From Burkholderiales bacterium (GTDB lineage Bacteria > Pseudomonadota > Gammaproteobacteria > Burkholderiales > JAEUOS01): a stretch of 64,000 bases of DNA. The position numbers and the translations under genes were made by a program. This document shows positions 28,507 through 40,858 of the stretch, piece after piece; the stretch's first letter is position 1, and every line of letters begins with the position of its first letter. A model generated the notes under the pieces. That model did not search any database. It was not told where the DNA came from and saw only the letters and a list, made by a program, of their open reading frames with translations. The stretch spans positions 1 to 64,000 of the forward strand of contig JAEUOR010000046.1 in the NCBI GenBank assembly GCA_016790635.1, given 5' to 3'.

Positions 28507-29508
28507 ATGAGATTTGCCAAGAACACGTGGTGGCTGGCCGCCGCCGTCGGGCTCGTCGCTGCGCAGACCGCAGTAGCCCAGGACAAGATCGCCGCGGTGC
28601 ATGCCTTCCCGGCCAGCTGGGTCTACTCCAAGAGTTTTCTCGAGTTCGTCAAGAAGGCCAACACGGCCGGCAAGGGCGCCTTCGAAATCACGGTGCGCGG
28701 CGGACCCGAGGCGGTTGGCATGTTCGAGCAGCCCGCCGCGGTGCGCGACGGCGTGGTCGACATGGTCTATACGCCCTGCGCCTTTTACGCTGCCGCCGTG
28801 CCGGAGTGCGACGCGGTCAGCGCTTCTTCGATCGACGGCCCGACCGCGCGCAAGAGCGGCGCCACCGCGGCCCTGAACGAGGCGCACGTGCGGCGCATGA
28901 GCACCGTTTACCTGGGCTGGATGGATTCGGGCATCCGCTTTCACCTCTGGTTCAAGAACCAGCCCAAGCTGGACGCGCGCGGCAACCTGGACATCACCGG
29001 TGTCAAGCTGCGCGGCAACCCCATCTACAACGCCTTCTTCACCAACTACCTGAAGGCGCAGGTCATCAACCTGCCTTCCACCGAGGTGTACACCGCGCTC
29101 GAGCGCGGCACCGCGGATGCCACCGGCTGGACCGAGATCGGCCTGATGGATGCCAACTGGGACCGCTTCCTCAAGTTCCGCCTCGACCCGCCCTTCTTCT
29201 CGACCGACCTGGGCGTGATCATGAACGTGCGCAAGTGGAACTCGCTGTCGGACAAGTCCAAGGAGATCCTGACGCGTGTGGCCATCGAGCACGAGGTCTC
29301 CTCGCTCAAGGCGCAGGCAGAGTTGCGCAAGAAGGAATTCGCCGAGCTCGAAAAGCGCGGCATGAAGGGCGTCTCGCTGGGCAAGGAAGCCGCAGCCACG
29401 TTTGCGGATGAAGCACGCAAGGCCAGCTGGGCGCGCATGCGGGACCGCATGGAAAAAGCCGGCGGCCGGCAGGAAGTCGATCGCTTCATCAAGCTCTACG
29501 CGCCCTGA
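28507..29508 (+). CDS. dctP: TRAP transporter substrate-binding protein (DctP type)
   Basis: A 333-residue periplasmic receptor of a tripartite ATP-independent transporter. The signal peptide is MRFAKNTWWLAAAVGLVAAQ with cleavage after AVAQ. Further conserved stretches are VRDGVVDMVYTPCAFY, the ligand-arginine region GNLDITGVKLRGNPIY and ERGTADATGWTEIGLM. DctP proteins bind carboxylates through an arginine, so the ligand is most likely an organic acid. Start ATG 28507 has AGGAG upstream. First gene of the operon continuing with dctQ, dctM and catabolic genes. Confidence 0.9.
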   Translation: MRFAKNTWWLAAAVGLVAAQTAVAQDKIAAVHAFPASWVYSKSFLEFVKKANTAGKGAFEITVRGGPEAVGMFEQPAAVRDGVVDMVYTPCAFYAAAVPECDAVSASSIDGPTARKSGATAALNEAHVRRMSTVYLGWMDSGIRFHLWFKNQPKLDARGNLDITGVKLRGNPIYNAFFTNYLKAQVINLPSTEVYTALERGTADATGWTEIGLMDANWDRFLKFRLDPPFFSTDLGVIMNVRKWNSLSDKSKEILTRVAIEHEVSSLKAQAELRKKEFAELEKRGMKGVSLGKEAAATFADEARKASWARMRDRMEKAGGRQEVDRFIKLYAP

Positions 29509-29555
29509 TTCGCGGCTGAGTTGCACCGACTGCGGCAGCGCGCGGCTCACCGACC

Positions 29556-30071
29556 ATGAGGCTGGTGGGCCGCGCCTATGATGCGTTGCTGTACGGCATG
29601 GCGGCCTTGGCCGGCCTGCTGATGGCAGCCATGATGTTCACCATCACGGTGGACGTGATCCTGCGCAACCTGGGTTACCAGAGTTCCGCACACCTCTTCA
29701 CCTTCACCGAATACGCGCTGCTCATCGTGCCCTGCCTGGGTGCTCCCTGGCTGGTGCGCGAAAAGGGCCACGTCTACGTCGAGATCCTGCTCATGGCGAT
29801 GGCGCCGGCGCTCAGGCGCCGCTGGGCCATCGGCATCGGCATCGCGTGCGTGATTGTCTGCGCCATCCTCGCCTGGTACGGCGTGCAGGTGACCTGGCGC
29901 AATTTCAGCCTCAACGACATCGACGTGCGCTCGATGGACATGCCGCGCTGGATGATCGTGATCTTCATCCCGCTGGCCTTCACGATGATGGCCATCGAGT
30001 TCGCGCGCTTCCTCTGGCGCGGCGAGGATTTCCTGGGCGCGCTGGGCGGACAGGCCGAGGACCGCAGTTGA
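29556..30071 (+). CDS. dctQ: TRAP transporter small permease (DctQ type)
   Basis: A 171-residue membrane protein with four hydrophobic helices, the small subunit of the TRAP membrane complex. The pattern TVDVILRNLGYQSS after the first helix and PWLVREKGHVYVEILL before the third are DctQ signatures. It lies 47 bases after dctP and 29 before dctM, the standard PQM order. It works with DctM in the inner membrane to move the DctP-delivered substrate with sodium ions. Confidence 0.9.
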   Translation: MRLVGRAYDALLYGMAALAGLLMAAMMFTITVDVILRNLGYQSSAHLFTFTEYALLIVPCLGAPWLVREKGHVYVEILLMAMAPALRRRWAIGIGIACVIVCAILAWYGVQVTWRNFSLNDIDVRSMDMPRWMIVIFIPLAFTMMAIEFARFLWRGEDFLGALGGQAEDRS

Positions 30072-30100
30072 ACCCGCCCCGCTCCCGGAGCTGACGCACC

Positions 30101-31417
30101 ATGGATTGGACCTGGGCGGCCATCCTGCTCTTCGGCCTCGGTGTCGGGCTGATGCTGCTGGGGCTGCCGGTGGCGATCGCGTTCTTCGCCACCAACATCG
30201 TCGCGGCCGTTTTTTTCATGGGCGGCGGCAGCGGCATCGCGCAGGTCATCAACAACGGCTTCGGCGCGATGACCTCGTTCGCGCTGGTGCCGATCCCGAT
30301 GTTCCTCCTGATGGGCGAGCTGTTCTATCACACCGGTCTCGCCACCAAGTGCTTCAACGCCGCCGACAAGCTCCTGGGCAACATCCGCGGGCGCCTGTCC
30401 TACGTCACGCTCATCGGCGGCACCGCGTTCGCCGGCCCGGCCGGCTCCAGCATGGGCGCCTGCGCGCTCCTGGGCTCGCTCATGGTCCCGGAGATGATCA
30501 AGCGCGGCTACAACAAGTACCTGTCGATCGGGCCCATCATGGGCGTGGGCGGCCTGGCAGTCATCATCCCGCCCTCCGCGCTGACGGTGCTCCTGGCCAC
30601 GCTGGGCCGCACCGACGTCGGCGACCTGCTCATCGCCGGCATCATCCCGGGCTTCGTGCTGGCGCTCATGTACGGCATCCTCATCTGGGGCTGGACCGTG
30701 ATCGACCCCTCGGCAGCGCCTCCCTACGACCCCGAGCCGGTGCCGCGCGCCGAGAAGCTGCGGCTGTTCTTCTTCGACGTGATCCCGATGGTCGCGATCA
30801 TCGTCTTCTCGGTGGTAGTCATGCTGGTCGGCTGGTGCACCCCGACCGAGGCAGCCGCGCTGGGCGCGGTGTCGGTGATCGTGCTGGCCGCCTGCTACGG
30901 GCGCATGACGCTCAAGGCCTTCATCGCCTCGCTCGAAGGCGCGCTCAAGATCACGGTGATGTCGTTCCTGATCATCTTCGGCTCGGCCACCTTCGCGCAG
31001 GTGCTGGCGTTCACGGGCGCATCTTCCGGCCTCATGAACTGGGCGCTGTCCTTCGACCTGACGCCGATGGGCATGCTCTTCATCATGATCGGCGTGATCC
31101 TCTTCCTCGGCTGCTTCATGGACCAGCTCTCCATGATGCTGCTCACCGCGCCGATCTTCTTCCCGCTGGCCAAGACCCTGGGCTTCGACCTGACCTGGTT
31201 CGGGCTCATCATGCTCCTGACCCTGGAGATCGGCTACACCACGCCGCCCTTCGGCCTGCTGCTGTTCGTCATGAAGGGCGTGGCGCCACCCGGCACGTCG
31301 ATGCGCGACATCTACCTGTCCGCCATCCCCTTCATCGCCTGCGTCCTGATACTGATCGGGCTGGTCATCATCTTCCCGCCGCTGGCCACCTGGCTTCCCA
31401 GTCTCAGCCACACGTAA
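30101..31417 (+). CDS. dctM: TRAP transporter large permease (DctM type)
   Basis: The 438-residue large membrane subunit with about twelve helices. The N-terminal LPVAIAFFATNIVAAVFF, the conserved loop PIPMFLLMGELFYHTG, the GPAGSSMGACALLGSLMVPEM and the substrate/Na+ region MGVGGLAVIIPPSALTVLL are standard. The helix FLGCFMDQLSMMLLTAPIFFP is the second inverted-repeat half. All three TRAP components are therefore intact. Downstream genes follow with gaps of 4-23 bases, tying uptake to catabolism. Confidence 0.92.
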   Translation: MDWTWAAILLFGLGVGLMLLGLPVAIAFFATNIVAAVFFMGGGSGIAQVINNGFGAMTSFALVPIPMFLLMGELFYHTGLATKCFNAADKLLGNIRGRLSYVTLIGGTAFAGPAGSSMGACALLGSLMVPEMIKRGYNKYLSIGPIMGVGGLAVIIPPSALTVLLATLGRTDVGDLLIAGIIPGFVLALMYGILIWGWTVIDPSAAPPYDPEPVPRAEKLRLFFFDVIPMVAIIVFSVVVMLVGWCTPTEAAALGAVSVIVLAACYGRMTLKAFIASLEGALKITVMSFLIIFGSATFAQVLAFTGASSGLMNWALSFDLTPMGMLFIMIGVILFLGCFMDQLSMMLLTAPIFFPLAKTLGFDLTWFGLIMLLTLEIGYTTPPFGLLLFVMKGVAPPGTSMRDIYLSAIPFIACVLILIGLVIIFPPLATWLPSLSHT

Positions 31418-32215: not shown

Positions 32216-33847
32216 TTGGCTGCGACGGTCTTCGAGGCCTTCGCCGCGACCGCGCGCGCGCGCGCCGACGCGCCCTTCCTGCACGTCGAGGAGGTCACCG
32301 CTGCCGCCTACGGCATCGCGGTCGAGACGCTGTCCTATGCGGCGCTGCTGGCCCGCGTCGAGCAGGTCGCGGCGCGCTACCGCGCGGCCGGCGTCGGCCA
32401 TGGCCATCGCGCCGGGCTCCTGACTGAGAACCGGCCCGCGTTCTTCGTGCACTGGTTCGCGCTCAATTCCCTGGGCGCCAGCGTGGTGCCGATCCATCGC
32501 GACATGCGCGCGGCGGAACTCGAGTACCTAGTCGGGCATAGCGAAATCGTCCTCGCGGTGTCCCTGCCCGACCGTGCCGCACTGCTGCGCGATGCCGCGC
32601 GCGCCGCGGGCAGGAAGGTCGCGATCATCGGACTGGAGGATGAAGTCGACCTCCCGCCGCTGTCGACCACCGCACCGCATGCCGGCCGGCTGCCGGGCTC
32701 CGACAGCGAATGCGCCCTGCTCTATACCTCGGGCACCACCGGCCGCCCCAAGGGCTGCGTCCTTGCCAACGACTACTACCTGCGCGCCGGGCGCTGGTAC
32801 GCGGCGGCCGGGGGCGCCTGTGCGCTCGCCCCGGCAGGCGAGCGCATGGCCACGCCGCTGCCGTTGACGCACATGAATGCGATGGCCTACTCGGTCATGG
32901 CCATGATCGTAACCGGCGGCTGCCTGATCCAGCTGGACCGTTTTCATCCCGAGACATGGTGGCAGAGCGTGCGCGCATCGGGTGCGACGGTCGTGCACTA
33001 TCTCGGCGTCATGCCGGCCATGCTTCTGAACGCACCCGTCGCCCCTGCCGACCGGCAGCACGCGGTGCGCTTCGGCTTCGGTGCAGGCGTCGACCGGCGC
33101 CATCACGCGAACTTCGAAGAGCGCTTCGGCTTTCCGCTCATCGAGGGCTGGGCGATGACCGAAACCGGTGCCGGCGCCGTGGTGGTTGCCAACGAAGAGC
33201 CGCGCCTGGTGGGGCAGGCCTCGCTCGGTCGTGCAGGCAGCGCCATGCAGTGGCGCCTGGTCGATGAGGACGGGCAGGACGTGCCGACCGGCAGCAATGG
33301 CGAGCTCCTGGTGCGTGCCGCGGGGCCCGATCCGCGCGCCGGCTTTTTCCGCGAGTACCTGAAGGACGCCGAGGCGACGGCCGCGGCATGGCAGGGCGGC
33401 TGGTTCCATACCGGCGATCTGGTGCGTGCGGATGACCAAGGCAACCTCTTTTTCATTGACCGCAAGAAGAACGTGATCCGCCGCAGCGGCGAGAACATCT
33501 CGGCCGTGGAAGTCGAGAGCGTGCTGGCGACCTTTGCGGGCGTGAAGGCCGTCGCCGTCGCGGCGACCCCGGACGCGTTGCGCGGCGACGAAGTCGCGGC
33601 GCTGGTCGTGACGCAGGAGGCGCTCGATGATGCGGCGCGCGCGGACTTCGCCGCCGCGCTGACGCGCCATGCCCTCCTGCGCCTGTCCTACTTCAAGGCG
33701 CCAGGGTGGGTGGCTTTCGTCGATGCCCTGCCGCTCACGCCATCGCAAAAGATCGCGCGCGGCGATCTGCGATCGATCGCACGCGGGCTGGCCGACCTGC
33801 CGGGCACGATCGACACGCGTGCGCTCAAGAAGCGCCCGGCCGACTGA
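32216..33847 (+). CDS. AMP-dependent acyl-CoA ligase (class I adenylate-forming)
   Basis: A 543-residue ANL-superfamily ligase that activates a carboxylic acid to its CoA thioester via the acyl-AMP. Motifs: P-loop LLYTSGTTGRPKG (169-180), GWAMTETGAG, hinge TGDLVRADDQGNLFFIDR and the C-terminal catalytic lysine in LTPSQKIARGDLR. Overall it resembles crotonobetaine/carnitine-CoA ligase and related enzymes. The start is TTG 32216, four bases after the previous stop. Because it follows a carboxylate transporter in the same operon, it probably activates the imported acid (inference). Confidence 0.88.
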   Translation: MAATVFEAFAATARARADAPFLHVEEVTAAAYGIAVETLSYAALLARVEQVAARYRAAGVGHGHRAGLLTENRPAFFVHWFALNSLGASVVPIHRDMRAAELEYLVGHSEIVLAVSLPDRAALLRDAARAAGRKVAIIGLEDEVDLPPLSTTAPHAGRLPGSDSECALLYTSGTTGRPKGCVLANDYYLRAGRWYAAAGGACALAPAGERMATPLPLTHMNAMAYSVMAMIVTGGCLIQLDRFHPETWWQSVRASGATVVHYLGVMPAMLLNAPVAPADRQHAVRFGFGAGVDRRHHANFEERFGFPLIEGWAMTETGAGAVVVANEEPRLVGQASLGRAGSAMQWRLVDEDGQDVPTGSNGELLVRAAGPDPRAGFFREYLKDAEATAAAWQGGWFHTGDLVRADDQGNLFFIDRKKNVIRRSGENISAVEVESVLATFAGVKAVAVAATPDALRGDEVAALVVTQEALDDAARADFAAALTRHALLRLSYFKAPGWVAFVDALPLTPSQKIARGDLRSIARGLADLPGTIDTRALKKRPAD

Positions 33848-33852
33848 CGCCC

Positions 33853-35019
33853 ATGACGCGCCGAGGTTACGAGGGGGTCGCGGTGGCCGTGCCGGTTACG
33901 GTACCTTACGTGCGTTATTCGACGCGCGGTGCACACTGGTTCATCGGCCGGGCCCTGGCGGCCCTGGTCAAGGAGGCCGGCATCACCAAGGGCGCGATCG
34001 ACGGTCTCATCGTCTCCTCGTTCTCGCTCACGCCCGACACGGCGATTGGCGTCACCCAGCACCTGGGGCTGACGCCGCGCTGGCTGGACCACGTGCCCTT
34101 GGGCGGCGCGTCCGGCGTGGTGGCGCTCAGGCGTGCGGCGCGCGCGGTTCAGGCGGGCGACGCCGAGATCGTCGCCTGCGTCGCCGGCGACACCAACCAG
34201 GTCGATTCATTCCGCCAGATGCTGGGCAGCTTTTCGCATTTCGCGCGCGACGCGACCTACCCCTACGGCTCGGGCGGACCGAACGCGATGTTCGCCTTCA
34301 TCACCGCGCACTACATGCAGTCTGCCGGCGCGACGCGCGCGGACTTCGCGAAAATCTGCGTCGCGCAGCGTGACAACGCGCTGGCGACACCCTGGGCGAT
34401 GTTCAAGAAGCCATTGACGCCCGAGGAGTGCCTGACCGCGCGCGTCATCGCCGATCCGATCCACCTCTTCGACTGCGTCATGCCCTGCGCCGGCGCCGAG
34501 GGCGTGCTGGTCATGTCCGCCGACCGGGCGCACGCTCTGGGTCTGCCCTACGCGCGCGTGCTGGGCGCGATCGAACGCCACAACGCCTACGCGGAGGACC
34601 CCATCATGACGCGCGGCGGCTGGGGCATGGATCGCGACGATCTCTACGCGCAGGCAGGCGTGGGCCCGCAGGACCTGGACTTCGTGCAGCTGTACGACGA
34701 CTATCCGGTCATCGTCATGCTGCAGTACGAGGGCCTGGGCCTGTGCGCCGCAGGCGGCGCGCCTGCGCTGGTGCGCGAGCGGACGCTGACTCGCGACGGC
34801 ACCCTGCCCACCAACACCAGCGGCGGCCAGCTCTCGGTCGGACAGGCGGGCTGCGCCGGCGGCTACCTGGGGCTCACCGAGGCCGTGCGCCAGCTGACCG
34901 GCGCCGCCGCGGGGCGCGCCGTGCCGGATGCGCGCCTGGGCCTGGTGAGCGGCTTTGGCATGGTCACCTATGATCGCTGCCTGGCCACCGGCGCGGCGAT
35001 CCTGGCGCGCGCCGACTGA
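33853..35019 (+). CDS. SCP2/Ltp2-type thiolase-fold protein without thiolase cysteine (probable aldolase)
   Basis: A 388-residue thiolase-fold protein of the non-specific lipid-transfer (SCP2-thiolase) type. At the nucleophile position the sequence is GGAS (84-87), with A86 in place of the active cysteine, and the usual GHP box is QAGCAGG, with Q331 in place of histidine. Such cysteine-less homologues (Ltp2 family) pair with a DUF35 protein and act as retro-aldolases on branched CoA thioesters; the tyrosine segment QLYDDYP (279-285) resembles the Ltp2 catalytic region. The next gene supplies a DUF35 domain. ATG 33853, five bases after the ligase stop. Retro-aldolase function is inference; thiolysis is unlikely. 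Confidence 0.8.
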   Translation: MTRRGYEGVAVAVPVTVPYVRYSTRGAHWFIGRALAALVKEAGITKGAIDGLIVSSFSLTPDTAIGVTQHLGLTPRWLDHVPLGGASGVVALRRAARAVQAGDAEIVACVAGDTNQVDSFRQMLGSFSHFARDATYPYGSGGPNAMFAFITAHYMQSAGATRADFAKICVAQRDNALATPWAMFKKPLTPEECLTARVIADPIHLFDCVMPCAGAEGVLVMSADRAHALGLPYARVLGAIERHNAYAEDPIMTRGGWGMDRDDLYAQAGVGPQDLDFVQLYDDYPVIVMLQYEGLGLCAAGGAPALVRERTLTRDGTLPTNTSGGQLSVGQAGCAGGYLGLTEAVRQLTGAAAGRAVPDARLGLVSGFGMVTYDRCLATGAAILARAD

Positions 35020-35035
35020 GAAGAACGACACTCTC

Positions 35036-36286
35036 ATGTCCATGCCCATGCCCCGCCCGCAGCGCAAGAACCCGGTGCTGCGCACGCGCGCGCCGACCCT
35101 GCCGCCCTGGGCGCGCAGCCGCGTCGCCCTGGGCATGACCACATGGGCGGCGCGTGGACGCTTCGCGCTGCAGACCTGCGCCGACTGCGGCGCCGTGCAG
35201 TACCCGGCGCGCGAAGCCTGCCATGCCTGCCTGTCGCCGCGCCTGGCATGGCGCGCGCAGGACGGAAGCGGCGCGTTGCTGGCCGAAACCACCCTCTCGC
35301 ACAGCAACGACCTGTACTTTCGCGAACGCCTGCCATGGCGCCTGGGCCTGGTGCGGCTGGACGCGGGACCGACCCTGATGGTGCACCTGCACGGCGACGT
35401 TGGCGTCGCGCCGGCGCGCGTCAAGGTCGGCGCGCGCCTGGACCGCGCCGGCCAGGCGGTATTGATCGGCCTTCCCCTTGAGGAGACTCCCCACATGGCG
35501 GACGACAAGATGCTCTACGACATGGGTTGTGATCCGAAATTCCGCAAGGTCCTCGTCACCGACGCCAAGTCGGCCACCGGCCAGGCGCTGGTGCGCGCCT
35601 TGGCCGAGGCCGGCGCCGACATCGTCTGGGCCGGGCACGCCGAGCCGTGGAAAAAGATCCCCGGGTTCGCCGCGGTGGCAGCGCTGCCGCAGGTGACCCC
35701 GGTGGCACTGGACGTGACCGACGGCAGGTCGGTCGCCGAGCTGGCGGGCGAACTGGCCGGCAAGGTCGACATCGTCATCAACAACGCGGAGGTGCACCGC
35801 ACCCACGGCATCGCGGCGCGGCGCGGCACCGATGCGGCGCGCGCCGAGATGGACGTCAATTACTTCGGCCTCCTGCGACTGGCGCAGGAGTTCGGCCCGG
35901 CCTTGCGCGCGCGCGGCGCCGATGGCAAAGCCGGTGCGGTGGCGTGGGTCAACCTCCTGTCGATCTACGCGCTGGCGAACTTTCCGCCGCACGGCACCTT
36001 CTCGGCCTCCAAGGCGGCTGCGCATTCGCTCTCGCAATGCCTGCGCGCCGAGATGCGTCCGGCCGGCATTCGCGTCATCGGCGTCTATCCCGGGCCGGTC
36101 GATGACGAATGGAACCAACTGTTGCCGCCGCCCAAGCTGGCGCCGGCCGCGCTGGCGCGCGCGGTAGTCAAGGCGCTCAAGGACGGCATCGAGGACGTCT
36201 ACCCGGGGGAGGTGGCGCAGGAGTGGCTGGAGCGCTGGCAGGACGACCCCAAGATCCTCGAGCGCGAACTGGCCGCGGGAGCCTGA
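35036..36286 (+). CDS. DUF35 (zinc-ribbon OB-fold) - degenerate SDR fusion protein
   Basis: A 416-residue two-domain protein. Residues 35-150 are a DUF35 domain: a rubredoxin-like zinc ribbon with C48, C51, C62, C65 and an OB-fold ending near QAVLIGLPLEE. Residues 168-416 are an SDR-type Rossmann domain, but the glycine motif reads TDAKSATG (175-182), the NNAG is NNAE (249-252), and the catalytic tyrosine is phenylalanine (F322-S-A-S-K326). The dinucleotide site and proton-donor are thus both impaired, so the domain is probably structural or a CoA/ligand-binding scaffold. DUF35 proteins are obligatory partners of thiolase-fold aldolases (ChsH2-Ltp2), and the thiolase-like gene lies 16 bases upstream. 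A very unusual fusion. Confidence 0.8.
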   Translation: MSMPMPRPQRKNPVLRTRAPTLPPWARSRVALGMTTWAARGRFALQTCADCGAVQYPAREACHACLSPRLAWRAQDGSGALLAETTLSHSNDLYFRERLPWRLGLVRLDAGPTLMVHLHGDVGVAPARVKVGARLDRAGQAVLIGLPLEETPHMADDKMLYDMGCDPKFRKVLVTDAKSATGQALVRALAEAGADIVWAGHAEPWKKIPGFAAVAALPQVTPVALDVTDGRSVAELAGELAGKVDIVINNAEVHRTHGIAARRGTDAARAEMDVNYFGLLRLAQEFGPALRARGADGKAGAVAWVNLLSIYALANFPPHGTFSASKAAAHSLSQCLRAEMRPAGIRVIGVYPGPVDDEWNQLLPPPKLAPAALARAVVKALKDGIEDVYPGEVAQEWLERWQDDPKILERELAAGA

Positions 36287-36287
36287 C

Positions 36288-37130
36288 ATGAGCGATGCCG
36301 TCATGCCCGCCACCGATCCTGTCACCAGCCCCGCAGCTGCCCTCGCGCCGGGCGAACTCCTGGCCGCGCTCGGCGCCGCGCTCGCGCGACGCTCGATCCG
36401 TGTCATCGATCTGACCCAGACCCTGGCGCCCGAGTTTCCGCAGATCGCGCTGCCGCCCGAACTGGGCCAGTGCTGGCCGTTTCGCATCGAGGAAGTGTCG
36501 CGCTACGACGAGCGCGGCCCCGGCTGGTACTGGAACAACTTTTCCTGCGGCGAACACACCGGCACGCACTTCGACGCGCCCATCCACTGGATCTCGGGCC
36601 GCGACCTGCCGGACAACGCGGTCGACACGATTCCCGTCGGGCACTTCGTGGCACCCGCGGTCGTGATCGACTGCAGCCGCGAGGCCGCGGCCGACGCCGA
36701 CTACCTTTTGACGGTGGAGAAGGTCAAGTCATGGGAAGCCACGCACGGCCGCATCCCCAAGGGCGCCTGGGTGCTCATGCGCACCGACTGGTCCAAGCGC
36801 ACCGACCCCGAGGCCTACCAAAACTATGACGAGACCGGCCAGCACACGCCGGGGCCGGCGGCCGAGACCGCGCAATTCCTGGTCGAAGAGCGCGACGTGC
36901 TGGGCTTCGGCACCGAGACGATCGGCACCGACGCCGGCCAGGGCTATCACCTGCGCCCGCCCTATCCGTGCCACTACACGTTCCACGGCGCCGGACGCTA
37001 CGGCCTGCAGTGCCTGACCAACCTCGACCTCCTGCCGCCGACCGGTTCCCTCCTGATCTGCCCGCCGCTCAAGATCCGGCAGGGAAGCGGCAGCCCGCTG
37101 CGGGTGCTCGCGCTGGTTGCAGGCCCGTAG
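36288..37130 (+). CDS. Cyclase family protein (kynurenine formamidase-like metal hydrolase)
   Basis: A 280-residue member of the cyclase superfamily (kynurenine formamidase, isatin hydrolase). The metal site is H90-T-G-T-H94-F-D96-A-P-I-H100-W, followed by VDTIPVGHFVAPAVVIDCS and GAWVLMRTDWSKR, all typical. It hydrolyses amides, lactams or lactones through a water-activating metal. Its ATG is one base after the previous stop. It is the last gene of the TRAP operon and its end is 10 bases from the converging monooxygenase gene. The substrate may be a ring-opened intermediate or lactone in the same pathway (inference). Confidence 0.85.
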   Translation: MSDAVMPATDPVTSPAAALAPGELLAALGAALARRSIRVIDLTQTLAPEFPQIALPPELGQCWPFRIEEVSRYDERGPGWYWNNFSCGEHTGTHFDAPIHWISGRDLPDNAVDTIPVGHFVAPAVVIDCSREAAADADYLLTVEKVKSWEATHGRIPKGAWVLMRTDWSKRTDPEAYQNYDETGQHTPGPAAETAQFLVEERDVLGFGTETIGTDAGQGYHLRPPYPCHYTFHGAGRYGLQCLTNLDLLPPTGSLLICPPLKIRQGSGSPLRVLALVAGP

Positions 37131-37140
37131 CGCCGAGATT

Positions 37141-38628
37141 TCAGGCCTCGAATACCAGCGCTCCGTCGGTCAACGACGCCCGCGGCAGTTCCTTGTTCTC
37201 ACGCTGGTAGTCCTGGTGATGCAGCCAGGGCTCAGCCGTGCCCTGACGCGGCAACAGGTGCATGCCACGCGCGAGGTAACCCGGGTTGAAGTCTTCTTCC
37301 AGCACCCAGGGCTTGAGTTCCATGCCGGCATCCGCATCCCGCAGTCGCGGCACGACCATGGTCGCGCCGGTCGCCTCCATCTGCTTGAAAAGCCGCGCGA
37401 CGAGGTCGCCCAGGAGGTCCACGCGCAGGGTCCAGCTGGCGCGGAAGTAGCCGAACACCCACAGGAGATTGGGCACGCCGGTGAACATGGCGCCACGCCA
37501 GGTGACGGTCTTGTGGAATTCCAGCGGCGCGCCGTCAATGGAAAACGGGATGTCGCCGAGTACGCTCAAGTCGAAGCCGGTCGCGGTGACGATGATGTCG
37601 GCCTCAAGCGTCGCGCCTGACTTCAGCAGCAACCCGCCGGCGACAAAGCGCTCAATCTCGTCGGTGACCACCGAGGCCTGGCCCGCGGCGATGGACTTGA
37701 AGAGGTCGGCATCCGGCACGAAGGCCAGGCGCTGCTGCCAGGGGCGGTAGCGCGGGTTGAAGTGCAGGTCGACATCGACCTTGTCACCGACCAATCCGCG
37801 CAGATTCTCGATCAACTCGCGTCGCACCGCCTCGGGTTCGGCCCTGGCGCGGCGTGCGAACAGGTCCTGCTCGTAGAGCACCTTGCGACGCACAATTTCG
37901 TGCGTCCATTCCTCGGGAATCTCCAGCGCACGCAGCATGTCGGCCAGGTCGTTGACGTTGCGCCCGGTGCGAAAGTAGGTCGGCGAGCGCTGCAGCATGG
38001 TCACGTGCGCGCAGTGCGGGGCCAGCGCCGGAATCAGCGTCGCCGCGGTCGCGCCCGAGCCGATGACCACGACCTTCTTGCCTTTCGTATCGAGGTCGGC
38101 GGGCCAGGTCTGCGGGTGGACGATGCGGCCGCCGAAGTCGGCCATCCCCGGCCACCGCGGTGTATAGCCGCTCTCGTGCCGGTAGTAGCCCTGGCACATC
38201 CACAGGAAGTTCGCGGTCAGCGTGATTTCATCACCGCCGTCGACGCGCCGGACGCGCAGGGTCCAGCGCCGCTCGGGCGTCGACCAACTGGCCGAGACGA
38301 TGCGGTGTCCATAGCGGATGTGCGCGGCGAGGTCGTTCTCCTCGATCACCTCGCCCATGTACTTGAGGATCTCCGCGGCGGTGGCGATCGGCGCGCCGGT
38401 CCAGGGCTTGAAGCGGTAGCCGAAGGTGTAGAGGTCGCTGTCGGAGCGGATGCCCGGAAAGCGGTGCGTGATCCAGGTGCCGCCGAAGCTAGGCTGCGAC
38501 TCGAGGACGACGTAGCGCTTGTCCGCGCACTGGTGCTGCAAGTGCCACGCCGCGCCGACGCCGGAGATGCCGGCGCCGACCACGATGACGTCAAAGTGTT
38601 CGGGTAAAGCGGTCGTTGTCGTGCGCAT
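37141..38628 (-). CDS. Flavin-containing monooxygenase (Baeyer-Villiger type)
   Basis: A 495-residue class B flavoprotein monooxygenase. The FAD motif GAGISG (18-23), the NADPH motif VVIGSGATAATL and the Baeyer-Villiger-type fingerprint FGGRIVHPQTWP are present, followed by ATGFDLSVLG near the C-terminal third. It inserts oxygen into ketones or oxidises soft nucleophiles with NADPH and O2. Last gene of a four-gene minus-strand operon (cupin, ThDP enzyme, ureidoglycolate-lyase-like, FMO), which suggests oxidation of a ketone or aldehyde produced upstream (inference). Confidence 0.88.
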   Translation of the reverse strand: MRTTTTALPEHFDVIVVGAGISGVGAAWHLQHQCADKRYVVLESQPSFGGTWITHRFPGIRSDSDLYTFGYRFKPWTGAPIATAAEILKYMGEVIEENDLAAHIRYGHRIVSASWSTPERRWTLRVRRVDGGDEITLTANFLWMCQGYYRHESGYTPRWPGMADFGGRIVHPQTWPADLDTKGKKVVVIGSGATAATLIPALAPHCAHVTMLQRSPTYFRTGRNVNDLADMLRALEIPEEWTHEIVRRKVLYEQDLFARRARAEPEAVRRELIENLRGLVGDKVDVDLHFNPRYRPWQQRLAFVPDADLFKSIAAGQASVVTDEIERFVAGGLLLKSGATLEADIIVTATGFDLSVLGDIPFSIDGAPLEFHKTVTWRGAMFTGVPNLLWVFGYFRASWTLRVDLLGDLVARLFKQMEATGATMVVPRLRDADAGMELKPWVLEEDFNPGYLARGMHLLPRQGTAEPWLHHQDYQRENKELPRASLTDGALVFEA

Positions 38629-39169: not shown

Positions 39170-40858
39170 CTAGCGCGCTGCGCGGGACTTCGCGCGCAAG
39201 CCCTCGATGGTCGTCTGCGTGGTGATCGCGTTCGGGTCGATCACGACCTCGATCACCGCGGGCTTGCCGCTGGCGACCGAGCGCTCGAGCGCACCCTGGA
39301 ACTGATCGGTCTCGGTCACGGTCTCGCCGTGCGCGCCGTAGGCGCGCGCCAGGGCGGCGAAGTCCGGGTTGGTGAACGCGGTGCCGTGCACGCGCTCCGG
39401 GTAGTCGCGCTCCTGGTGCATGCGGATGGTCCCGTACATGCCGTTGTTGACGATCACAAAAATGACGCCAAGCTTGTGGTGCACCGCGGTGGCCAGTTCC
39501 TGGCCGTTCATCATGTAGCAGCCGTCGCCGTTGAACGAGACCACGGTGCGTGCGCGGTCGGCGACCTTGGCCGCGACCCCGGCCGGCACGCCGTAGCCCA
39601 TCGAGCCCGCGGTCGGCGCGAGCTGGGTGCGCAAGCCCGTGTAGCGATGGAAGCGATGCAGCCAGCCCGAGAAATTGCCGGCGCCGTTGGTGAAGACCGT
39701 GTCCTCCGGCAGCACGGCCTCCATGACGCGGATCACCTCGCGCAGGTCGACCTTGCCGGGCATGCCCTTGTAGGCGCTGCCCTGCCAGTTTTCGTAGTCG
39801 GCGCGTGCGGTGCGGGTGGCGCCCGCGTAGCGCACGGATGCCGGCCTGCCGAGCGCCCTGGCCGCGGCCGCGAATTCGTTCATGCCGGAGGCGATCAGGA
39901 GTTCGCCCTGATAGACGCGCCCGAGCTCGTCGGGATCGTTGTGCACGTGCACCAGGGTCTGCGTGGTCACCGGGGGCGTGAGCAGGGTGTAGCCCGAGGT
40001 CGTCATCTCGCCCAGGCGCGCGCCGATGGCGAGCACCAGGTCGGCGCCCTTGACGCGCGCGGCCAGCGCCGGGTTGATGCCGATGCCGATGTCGCCCACG
40101 TAGTTGGGCAGGCGATTGTCGTACAGGTCCTGGAAGCGGAAGGAGCAACCGACCGGCAGGTCCCAGGCCTCGACAAAGGCGCGCAGGTCGGCGATGCCCT
40201 GCGCGTTCCAGCCCGCGCCGCCGAGGATGACCAGCGGACGCTCGGCCCCGGCCAGGAGATCCATGAGGCGTCCCATGTCGGCGGCATTGGGCGACGCCTG
40301 CACGACCTTGTAGGGGCGCACGTCGGCGACCGTTGCCATCGCGGTCAGCATGTCCTCCGGCAGGGCCAGCACCACCGGACCGGGCCGGCCCGATACCGCG
40401 GTATGAAAGGCATGGCTCACGTATTCGGGAATGCGGTCGGCGCGATCGATCTGCGCCACCCACTTGGCCATCTGCCCGAACATGCGCCGGTAGTCCATCT
40501 CCTGAAAGGCCTCGCGCTCGACCTGGTCGGAAGCCACCTGGCCAACGAAAAGGATCATCGGATCGGAGTCCTGGAAGGCGGTGTGCACTGCGATCGACGC
40601 ATTGGTCGCACCGGGTCCGCGGGTGACGAAGCAGATGCCGGGCTTGCCGGTCATCTTGCCGTAGGCGCCCGCCATGAATGCCGCGCCGCCGTCCTGGCGC
40701 GCGACGATCAGTTCGATCGCCTCGCGCGCGCCGTACAGCGCGTCGAGCACCGCGAGATAGGACTCGCCGGGCACGCAAAAGGCGTGGCGCACGCCGTGGA
40801 TCTTCAACTGGTCGACGAGGATCTCGCCGCCGGTGCGGGGTTGGGGTGCGGTGGTCAT
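39170..40858 (-). CDS. Thiamine-diphosphate-dependent enzyme (acetolactate synthase-like)
   Basis: A 562-residue three-domain ThDP enzyme. The N-terminal Pyr domain contains VARQDGGAAFMAGAYG with D56 where the family has the cofactor-activating glutamate; the ThDP/metal motif is NGDGCYMMNGQELATAVHHK with IFVIVNNGMYG. The central domain GAERPLVILGGAGW is intact. It could be a benzoylformate- or oxalyl-CoA-like decarboxylase or carboligase. Asp in place of Glu would shorten the contact to the aminopyrimidine but may retain activity. The start ATG overlaps the cupin gene stop (ATGA). Confidence 0.85.
   Translation of the reverse strand: MTTAPQPRTGGEILVDQLKIHGVRHAFCVPGESYLAVLDALYGAREAIELIVARQDGGAAFMAGAYGKMTGKPGICFVTRGPGATNASIAVHTAFQDSDPMILFVGQVASDQVEREAFQEMDYRRMFGQMAKWVAQIDRADRIPEYVSHAFHTAVSGRPGPVVLALPEDMLTAMATVADVRPYKVVQASPNAADMGRLMDLLAGAERPLVILGGAGWNAQGIADLRAFVEAWDLPVGCSFRFQDLYDNRLPNYVGDIGIGINPALAARVKGADLVLAIGARLGEMTTSGYTLLTPPVTTQTLVHVHNDPDELGRVYQGELLIASGMNEFAAAARALGRPASVRYAGATRTARADYENWQGSAYKGMPGKVDLREVIRVMEAVLPEDTVFTNGAGNFSGWLHRFHRYTGLRTQLAPTAGSMGYGVPAGVAAKVADRARTVVSFNGDGCYMMNGQELATAVHHKLGVIFVIVNNGMYGTIRMHQERDYPERVHGTAFTNPDFAALARAYGAHGETVTETDQFQGALERSVASGKPAVIEVVIDPNAITTQTTIEGLRAKSRAAR

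Follow-up and report, generated by a model that had tools for sequence, protein, structure and literature searches.

Gene layout and domains of the fusion

The window (the whole stretch of 64,000 nucleotides analyzed here) carries on its plus strand a module of genes for a CoA ligase (32216 to 33847; PF00501/PF13193), a thiolase-fold protein (33853 to 35019), a protein joining a DUF35 half to an SDR half (35036 to 36286), and a predicted isatin hydrolase (36288 to 37130; PF04199). The ligase was 63% identical to the one encoded upstream of the fusion in Variovorax. The start of the thiolase-fold gene was set from its orthologues (a GTG at 33706 opens a longer mechanical ORF). The last gene product matched isatin hydrolase A (5nna/5nnb) with an E value of 3.1e-109, and its homologues elsewhere are annotated as cyclase or kynurenine formamidase.

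The fusion gene translates into 416 aa followed by a stop codon, in an intact frame. A preliminary description of this DNA had placed DUF35 and SDR in one frame, and this single ORF agrees, with three Pfam domains that all exceeded their gathering cut-offs: zf-ChsH2 (PF12172) at residues 38 to 70 (36.1 bits; cut-off, 23.2), OB_ChsH2_C (PF01796) at residues 72 to 136 (41 bits; cut-off, 27.1), and adh_short (PF00106) at residues 171 to 359 (E value of 2.7e-25). The N-terminal part has the organization of a DUF35 protein, that is, a four-Cys zinc ribbon (residues 37 to 70, positions 35144 to 35245, with C48, C51, C62, and C65) and then an OB fold (residues 71 to 146, positions 35246 to 35473). 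The latter matched the sequences of ChsH2(DUF35) (6ok1_B) and 9myr_B, and its strands were present in the AlphaFold2 model. The C-terminal part (residues 169 to 414, positions 35540 to 36277) has an SDR-type Rossmann fold according to both Pfam and a structural match. The AlphaFold2 prediction for the protein gave an SDR fold with a mean pLDDT of 77.9 (low at residues 1 to 27, 357 to 365, and 407 to 416), and the nearest solved fold was 5u4s (Z of 28.1 and rmsd of 2.5 over 230 residues, at 39% identity), in Foldseek and VIA-align rows that span essentially the SDR half and are uninformative on the DUF35 half. An antisense ORF (34964 to 36487) and other overlapping ORFs were discarded as shadows of high-GC coding DNA.

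The SDR half has none of the motifs of an active classical SDR (TGxxxGxG, NNAG, and YxxxK). At T175 to G182 (35558 to 35581), the cofactor motif reads TDAKSATG, with two of the three glycines gone; N249 to E252 (35780 to 35791) read NNAE; and F322 stands at the tyrosine position of YxxxK, within FSASK (35999 to 36013). All of these lie where the preliminary description had put them. Within the SDR tetrad, K326, S309, and N275 are retained, and Tyr alone is replaced.

The order ligase-thiolase-fusion-cyclase, with a ligase of the AMP-forming type, was conserved in about 77 to 82 of 89 loci. In Variovorax, the wider order was indolepyruvate oxidoreductase, reductase, Rieske alpha and beta, ligase, thiolase, fusion, cyclase, SDR, and solute-binding protein. 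From the reductase onward, this corresponds to the auxin degradation locus of V. paradoxus CL14, described as iadC-D-E-F-G-H-I-J-K2 (PMC12633357; PMC10374108). Because the Variovorax gene order equals the published one, and the fusion lies between IadG and IadI as Variovorax IadH does, we identify it as IadH of the iad pathway, by way of gene order and orthologues in V. paradoxus strains other than CL14. The ligase, the thiolase-fold protein, and the hydrolase are the corresponding orthologues of IadF, IadG, and IadI.

Unlike the Variovorax locus, the module in the window is limited to F-G-H-I, and a search beside it found neither iadCDE nor iadJ. A second full-length IadH copy, 64% identical to that in the window, is encoded elsewhere in the source genome (contig C46, L121:13869-15137, plus strand), in a locus running F-G-H-I and then D and E, with the (indolepyruvate) oxidoreductase pair divergent upstream. 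The nearest IadD (49 to 51% identity) and IadE are those beside this second copy, near which no IadJ is encoded. The best IadJ-like protein of the genome (43%) is on contig C6.

Directly upstream of the window module lies a TRAP transporter (28507 to 31417, plus strand; solute-binding protein and small and large permeases) that may import an indolic acid; the Roseibium and Sulfitobacter loci are also flanked by TRAP genes. On the minus strand, a flavin-containing monooxygenase-like gene (37141 to 38628) converges on the module, and a further gene nearby (39170 to 40858) encodes a thiamine-diphosphate enzyme of the PRK08199 subfamily. Since isatinate is a 2-oxo acid, this enzyme could be an isatinate decarboxylase.

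Family-wide loss of SDR motifs

The DUF35-SDR architecture, for which the preliminary description had suggested a search, was shared by at least 97 fused homologues. At 72 to 79% identity, the full-length fusion was present in at least 80 genome records, mostly of Variovorax, Pseudacidovorax, and other Burkholderiales (the orthologues of V. paradoxus and other Variovorax were ca. 74 to 79% identical to the window protein over the full length). More distant fused homologues (37 to 61% identity) were encoded by Alphaproteobacteria and in other genomes. The fusion was also found on plasmids of Sulfitobacter, Roseibium/Labrenzia, Paracoccus, Neorhizobium, and Azospirillum, where any annotation given was “SDR family NAD(P)-dependent oxidoreductase.” The full-length fusion reads as a continuous frame in 97 sequences, which discards a sequencing error or split genes as its origin.

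In order to count motif residues, the 97 fused homologues, which are of beta-, alpha-, and other proteobacterial origin, were aligned in one run with 18 unfused relatives that the same search had found. All four zinc cysteines, described beforehand as intact in the window protein, were present in 97/97 fused proteins. The glycines of TGxxxGxG were kept in 0 (first), 1 (second), and 91 (third) of the 97, the first position being Asp in 93 and otherwise Asn or Ala, and the NNAG glycine remained in a single fused protein. The tyrosine position held F in 84 sequences, Y in 6, H in 3, A in 2, E in 1, and T in 1. The Lys of YxxxK persisted in 84 sequences, the other 13 having Q, N, C, G, H, or A instead. 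In contrast, Tyr, Lys, and the NNAG glycine were each found in 18/18 of the unfused relatives aligned. Leu occupies the Tyr position in 5u4s and in another unfused protein (L011), so that the loss of Tyr alone is not unique to the fusion. Most betaproteobacterial copies kept the counterparts of K326, S309, and N275, while alphaproteobacterial copies had another residue at the Lys position as well (Q, N, C, G, H, or A), with the operon still intact. Nearly invariant in the alignment were W198, H201, E203, W205, D356, D357, W359, and N360.

A local mutation, which would have shown itself in numerous close homologues having TGxxxGIG and YxxxK intact, can thus be dismissed: the motif losses are common to the 97 fused homologues, none of which has the first glycine and only two of which have a complete YxxxK. 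These two, the second copy of the source genome (YSASK restored, with SDGKSAVG and SNAE) and one from a Paucibacter genome bin, also lack the first glycine and the NNAG glycine. As to conservation of the particular residues, F predominated at the position of F322, and the exact TDAKSATG string is specific to the window copy, the consensus of the fused family being TDGKTxxGQ.

In a maximum-likelihood tree, fused and unfused proteins were separated with 100/97 support and, therefore, the fusion needs only one origin. The dN/dS ratio over 3,402 pairs was 0.206 for the SDR part and 0.226 for the DUF35 part (mean identities of 79% and 75%), which rejects random decay. One fused homologue at 37% identity (L119, minus strand) had lost all SDR motifs, had a long branch in the tree, and adjoined IadG and IadF homologues. 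The different replacements of Tyr and Lys across branches indicate that catalysis was relaxed at the level of the family. Given the family-wide motif loss, the single origin of the fusion, and a purifying selection similar to that of DUF35, the sequences identify the SDR half as a conserved pseudoenzyme in which catalysis was lost or relaxed and the domain is needed. This is what the preliminary description had proposed in place of random decay, and binding or assembly, its suggestion for a positive function of the SDR part, is what we also infer.

Predicted partner chemistry and related assemblies

At the position of the nucleophilic thiolase Cys, IadG has a Gly (GGASG), nearly throughout its 82 orthologues. 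GHP is replaced by GQAG, and a YDDY motif was found in 82/82. The best solved match was 9myr_A (E value of 9.7e-45), followed by 6ok1_A (Ltp2), and the aligned stretch of 9myr_A reads GGASS, YDCY, and GQSG. The code 9myr is given to the Sal-Shy(DUF35) structure of Comamonas testosteroni, and CtSal has a Gly at the Cys position and uses Tyr302 of YDCY as the base of the retro-aldol reaction (PMC12329534). IadG thus shares with the Ltp2/Sal-type aldolases both the replaced Cys and the Tyr of the YD motif, while the third motif residue was Asp in all orthologues rather than His (Ltp2) or Cys (Sal). We predict that IadG works like these aldolases, a statement about function and not about membership of either clade. 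The invariant YDDY differs from the YDHF of Ltp2 and the YDCY of Sal, and its Asp may be the catalytic acid in IadG.

IadI matched the isatin hydrolases 5nna, 5nnb, 5nmp, and 4j0n with E values from 3e-109 to 6e-81 and is, as judged by these matches, an isatin hydrolase. The substrate of isatin hydrolase is isatin, not dioxindole. Dioxindole-3-acetyl-CoA, whose alcohol is tertiary, belongs to the beta-hydroxyacyl-CoAs and, therefore, by established chemistry, its retro-aldol cleavage would be expected to release isatin and acetyl-CoA without using a redox cofactor.

DUF35 proteins are known partners of such aldolases. In ChsH2 and Shy (6ok1 and 9myr), as in IadH, DUF35 shares its chain with a second domain, and the gene accompanies that of a thiolase-fold aldolase. 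The thiolase-fold dimer is bound on both of its sides by DUF35 domains (PMC12329534), and Shy DUF35 by itself copurifies with Sal (PMC11321319). The partner domain of ChsH2 is catalytically inert (PMC11321319), as that of IadH would be. However, ChsH2 and Shy have a MaoC hot-dog fold where IadH has an SDR fold, and the zinc ribbon is of the four-Cys type in IadH and ChsH2 and Cys3His in Shy. A second parallel comes from anaerobic toluene degradation, where one operon encodes BbsA (DUF35), BbsB (a thiolase), and, in BbsCD, an inactive SDR subunit that pairs with an active SDR. BbsABCD are four separate genes, while IadH has DUF35 and a dead SDR in one chain, and BbsB, unlike IadG, keeps the Cys and His of true thiolases (GH where IadG has GQAG). 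BbsC was absent among the best 60 sequence matches listed. By analogy, IadH would unite in one chain the theme of ChsH2 (DUF35 with an inert domain) and that of BbsCD (an inactive SDR). As for 5u4s, it is an SDR of Burkholderia cenocepacia solved with NADP that lacks the Tyr (Leu in its place), as the SDR half of IadH does, and differs from that half in being unfused, having TGADRGLG and NNAG, and binding NADP. Since NADP is bound there despite the missing Tyr, IadH may likewise bind a cofactor.

Proposed role of the SDR half in auxin degradation

We consider it likely (probability of roughly 0.7) that IadH is a component of an IadFGHI system in which IadG is the retro-aldolase, DUF35 docks IadG, and the SDR part is structural and non-redox. 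IadF would convert dioxindole-3-acetic acid to its CoA thioester, IadG would cleave the C-C bond by a retro-aldol reaction, releasing isatin and acetyl-CoA without the nucleophilic Cys of thiolases, and IadI would open the isatin ring to isatinate. The DUF35 part would sit on the IadG dimer as ChsH2 and Shy do on Ltp2 and Sal. The SDR domain would perform no redox reaction and would serve as an oligomerization or docking platform that keeps IadG and IadH assembled, and it may also bind a pathway ligand.

In the published work, IadH is annotated as an alcohol dehydrogenase and IadG is proposed as a ketothiolase; deletion of iadH blocked or reduced the formation of anthranilate, with accumulation of C10H9NO4 (PMC12633357), as expected if IadG needs IadH. 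The metabolite after IadFGH was C8H7NO2, which builds up when IadI is missing and was taken by the authors as the product of a reductive step by IadH (PMC12633357). Its formula fits dioxindole, with two hydrogens more than isatin. In our reading, it arises from isatin through other reducing enzymes when IadI is lacking, and it is the main point against a non-redox IadH, which therefore requires another reductase for the conversion of isatin to dioxindole. The downstream metabolites C8H7NO3 and C7H7NO (PMC12633357) would fit, by formula, isatinate and 2-aminobenzaldehyde, respectively, and isatin, isatinic acid, and dioxindole have all been detected in cultures of V. paradoxus CL14 (PMC9613470).

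One alternative to a structural role is that IadH is still an oxidoreductase, with a noncanonical active site, that reduces isatin to dioxindole after acetyl removal. Besides the reductive removal and dehydrogenase annotation proposed for Variovorax and the build-up of C8H7NO2 (PMC12633357), it draws on features that also count against a non-redox IadH, namely, the NADP carried by 5u4s although Tyr is absent, the Lys, Ser, and Asn of the tetrad mostly retained in betaproteobacteria, and the YxxxK of two homologues. Nevertheless, of the 97 fused proteins, 91 lack Tyr, all 97 lack the first glycine, and 96 lack the NNAG glycine; the alphaproteobacterial copies also lack Lys within an intact operon, and IadI belongs to a family that acts on isatin rather than dioxindole. 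We therefore regard this reading as unlikely, and the sequences indicate that the published alcohol dehydrogenase role is probably wrong.

An inactive SDR could also pair with an active one, in the manner of BbsC and BbsD (a precedent taken from the title of an article by von Horsten et al. in the references of PMC10818641). The most likely partner would be IadJ, which IadH would bring to the aldolase; IadJ is encoded beside IadI in the Variovorax, Roseibium, Sulfitobacter, and Paracoccus loci, and that of V. paradoxus has intact TGGSAGIG, HNAG, and YSATK motifs. This appears unlikely, given that IadJ is of a different SDR subfamily (PRK07577/FabG-like), aligns with the SDR part of IadH over only 80 residues (29%), and is not encoded near the module in the window or near the second copy. 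We hold it improbable, too, that the pseudo-SDR, rather than being a scaffold, binds or senses a ligand such as a dinucleotide, a CoA ester, or an indolic acid and in this way regulates the aldolase or feeds it. The near-invariant residues listed above would suit such a site, and the steroid rings of the ChsH1 substrate are held by the inert MaoC domain that ChsH2 carries beside DUF35 (PMC11321319), while a calorimetry and thermal-shift screen of IadF to IadJ gave no binding of IAA (PMC10374108), the likely ligands lying outside that screen.

Within the preferred structural reading, the SDR part might also be made separately. Met154, in the linker at the domain boundary, is kept in 94/97 fused homologues, and its ATG (35495 to 35497) is preceded by a candidate Shine-Dalgarno sequence, GAGGAG (35480 to 35485, plus strand). 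In most homologues, Met154 is encoded by ATG with a GGAG-like sequence ca. 7 to 9 bases upstream, even at 45 to 50% identity. The anti-Shine-Dalgarno pairing energy averaged −7.7 at Met154 versus −1.8 at the remaining internal ATGs in these genes. Among 27 diverse sequences, it was −7.85, versus −5.88 (sd, 0.43) after synonymous reshuffling, with 0 of 500 reshufflings as low, a comparison that gives no clean probability because the sequences are related and the surrounding amino acids are partly conserved. This pattern suggests that an SDR-only product of 263 aa is also made from Met154. More tentatively, and with the odds rather against it, full-length and SDR-only chains could coassemble into a dead SDR core from which DUF35 arms extend, with a YDDY-type retro-aldolase bound to each. 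If true, this would be a class of scaffold derived from a dead dehydrogenase that performs C-C cleavage in bacterial auxin degradation.

Plant roots gain protection from Variovorax-type bacteria through the degradation of auxin. The gene name of IadH and its genetic requirement for this degradation were already known (PMC12633357), while its architecture and dead SDR are undescribed in the literature searched. Neither the DUF35 half nor the dead SDR motifs is mentioned in the portions of the published iad texts available, and nothing on the mechanism of IadH or on a DUF35-SDR fusion was found beyond that preprint in a search of mostly open-access literature. We call IadH a DUF35 partner of a thiolase-fold aldolase in which a pseudo-SDR replaces MaoC. 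Because IadG is devoid of the thiolase Cys and IadH of the dehydrogenase machinery, the sequences point to removal of the acetic acid side chain in one non-redox step, giving isatin and acetyl-CoA, followed by the adjacent isatin hydrolase. If true, the SDR would join the domains that DUF35 carries to aldolases.
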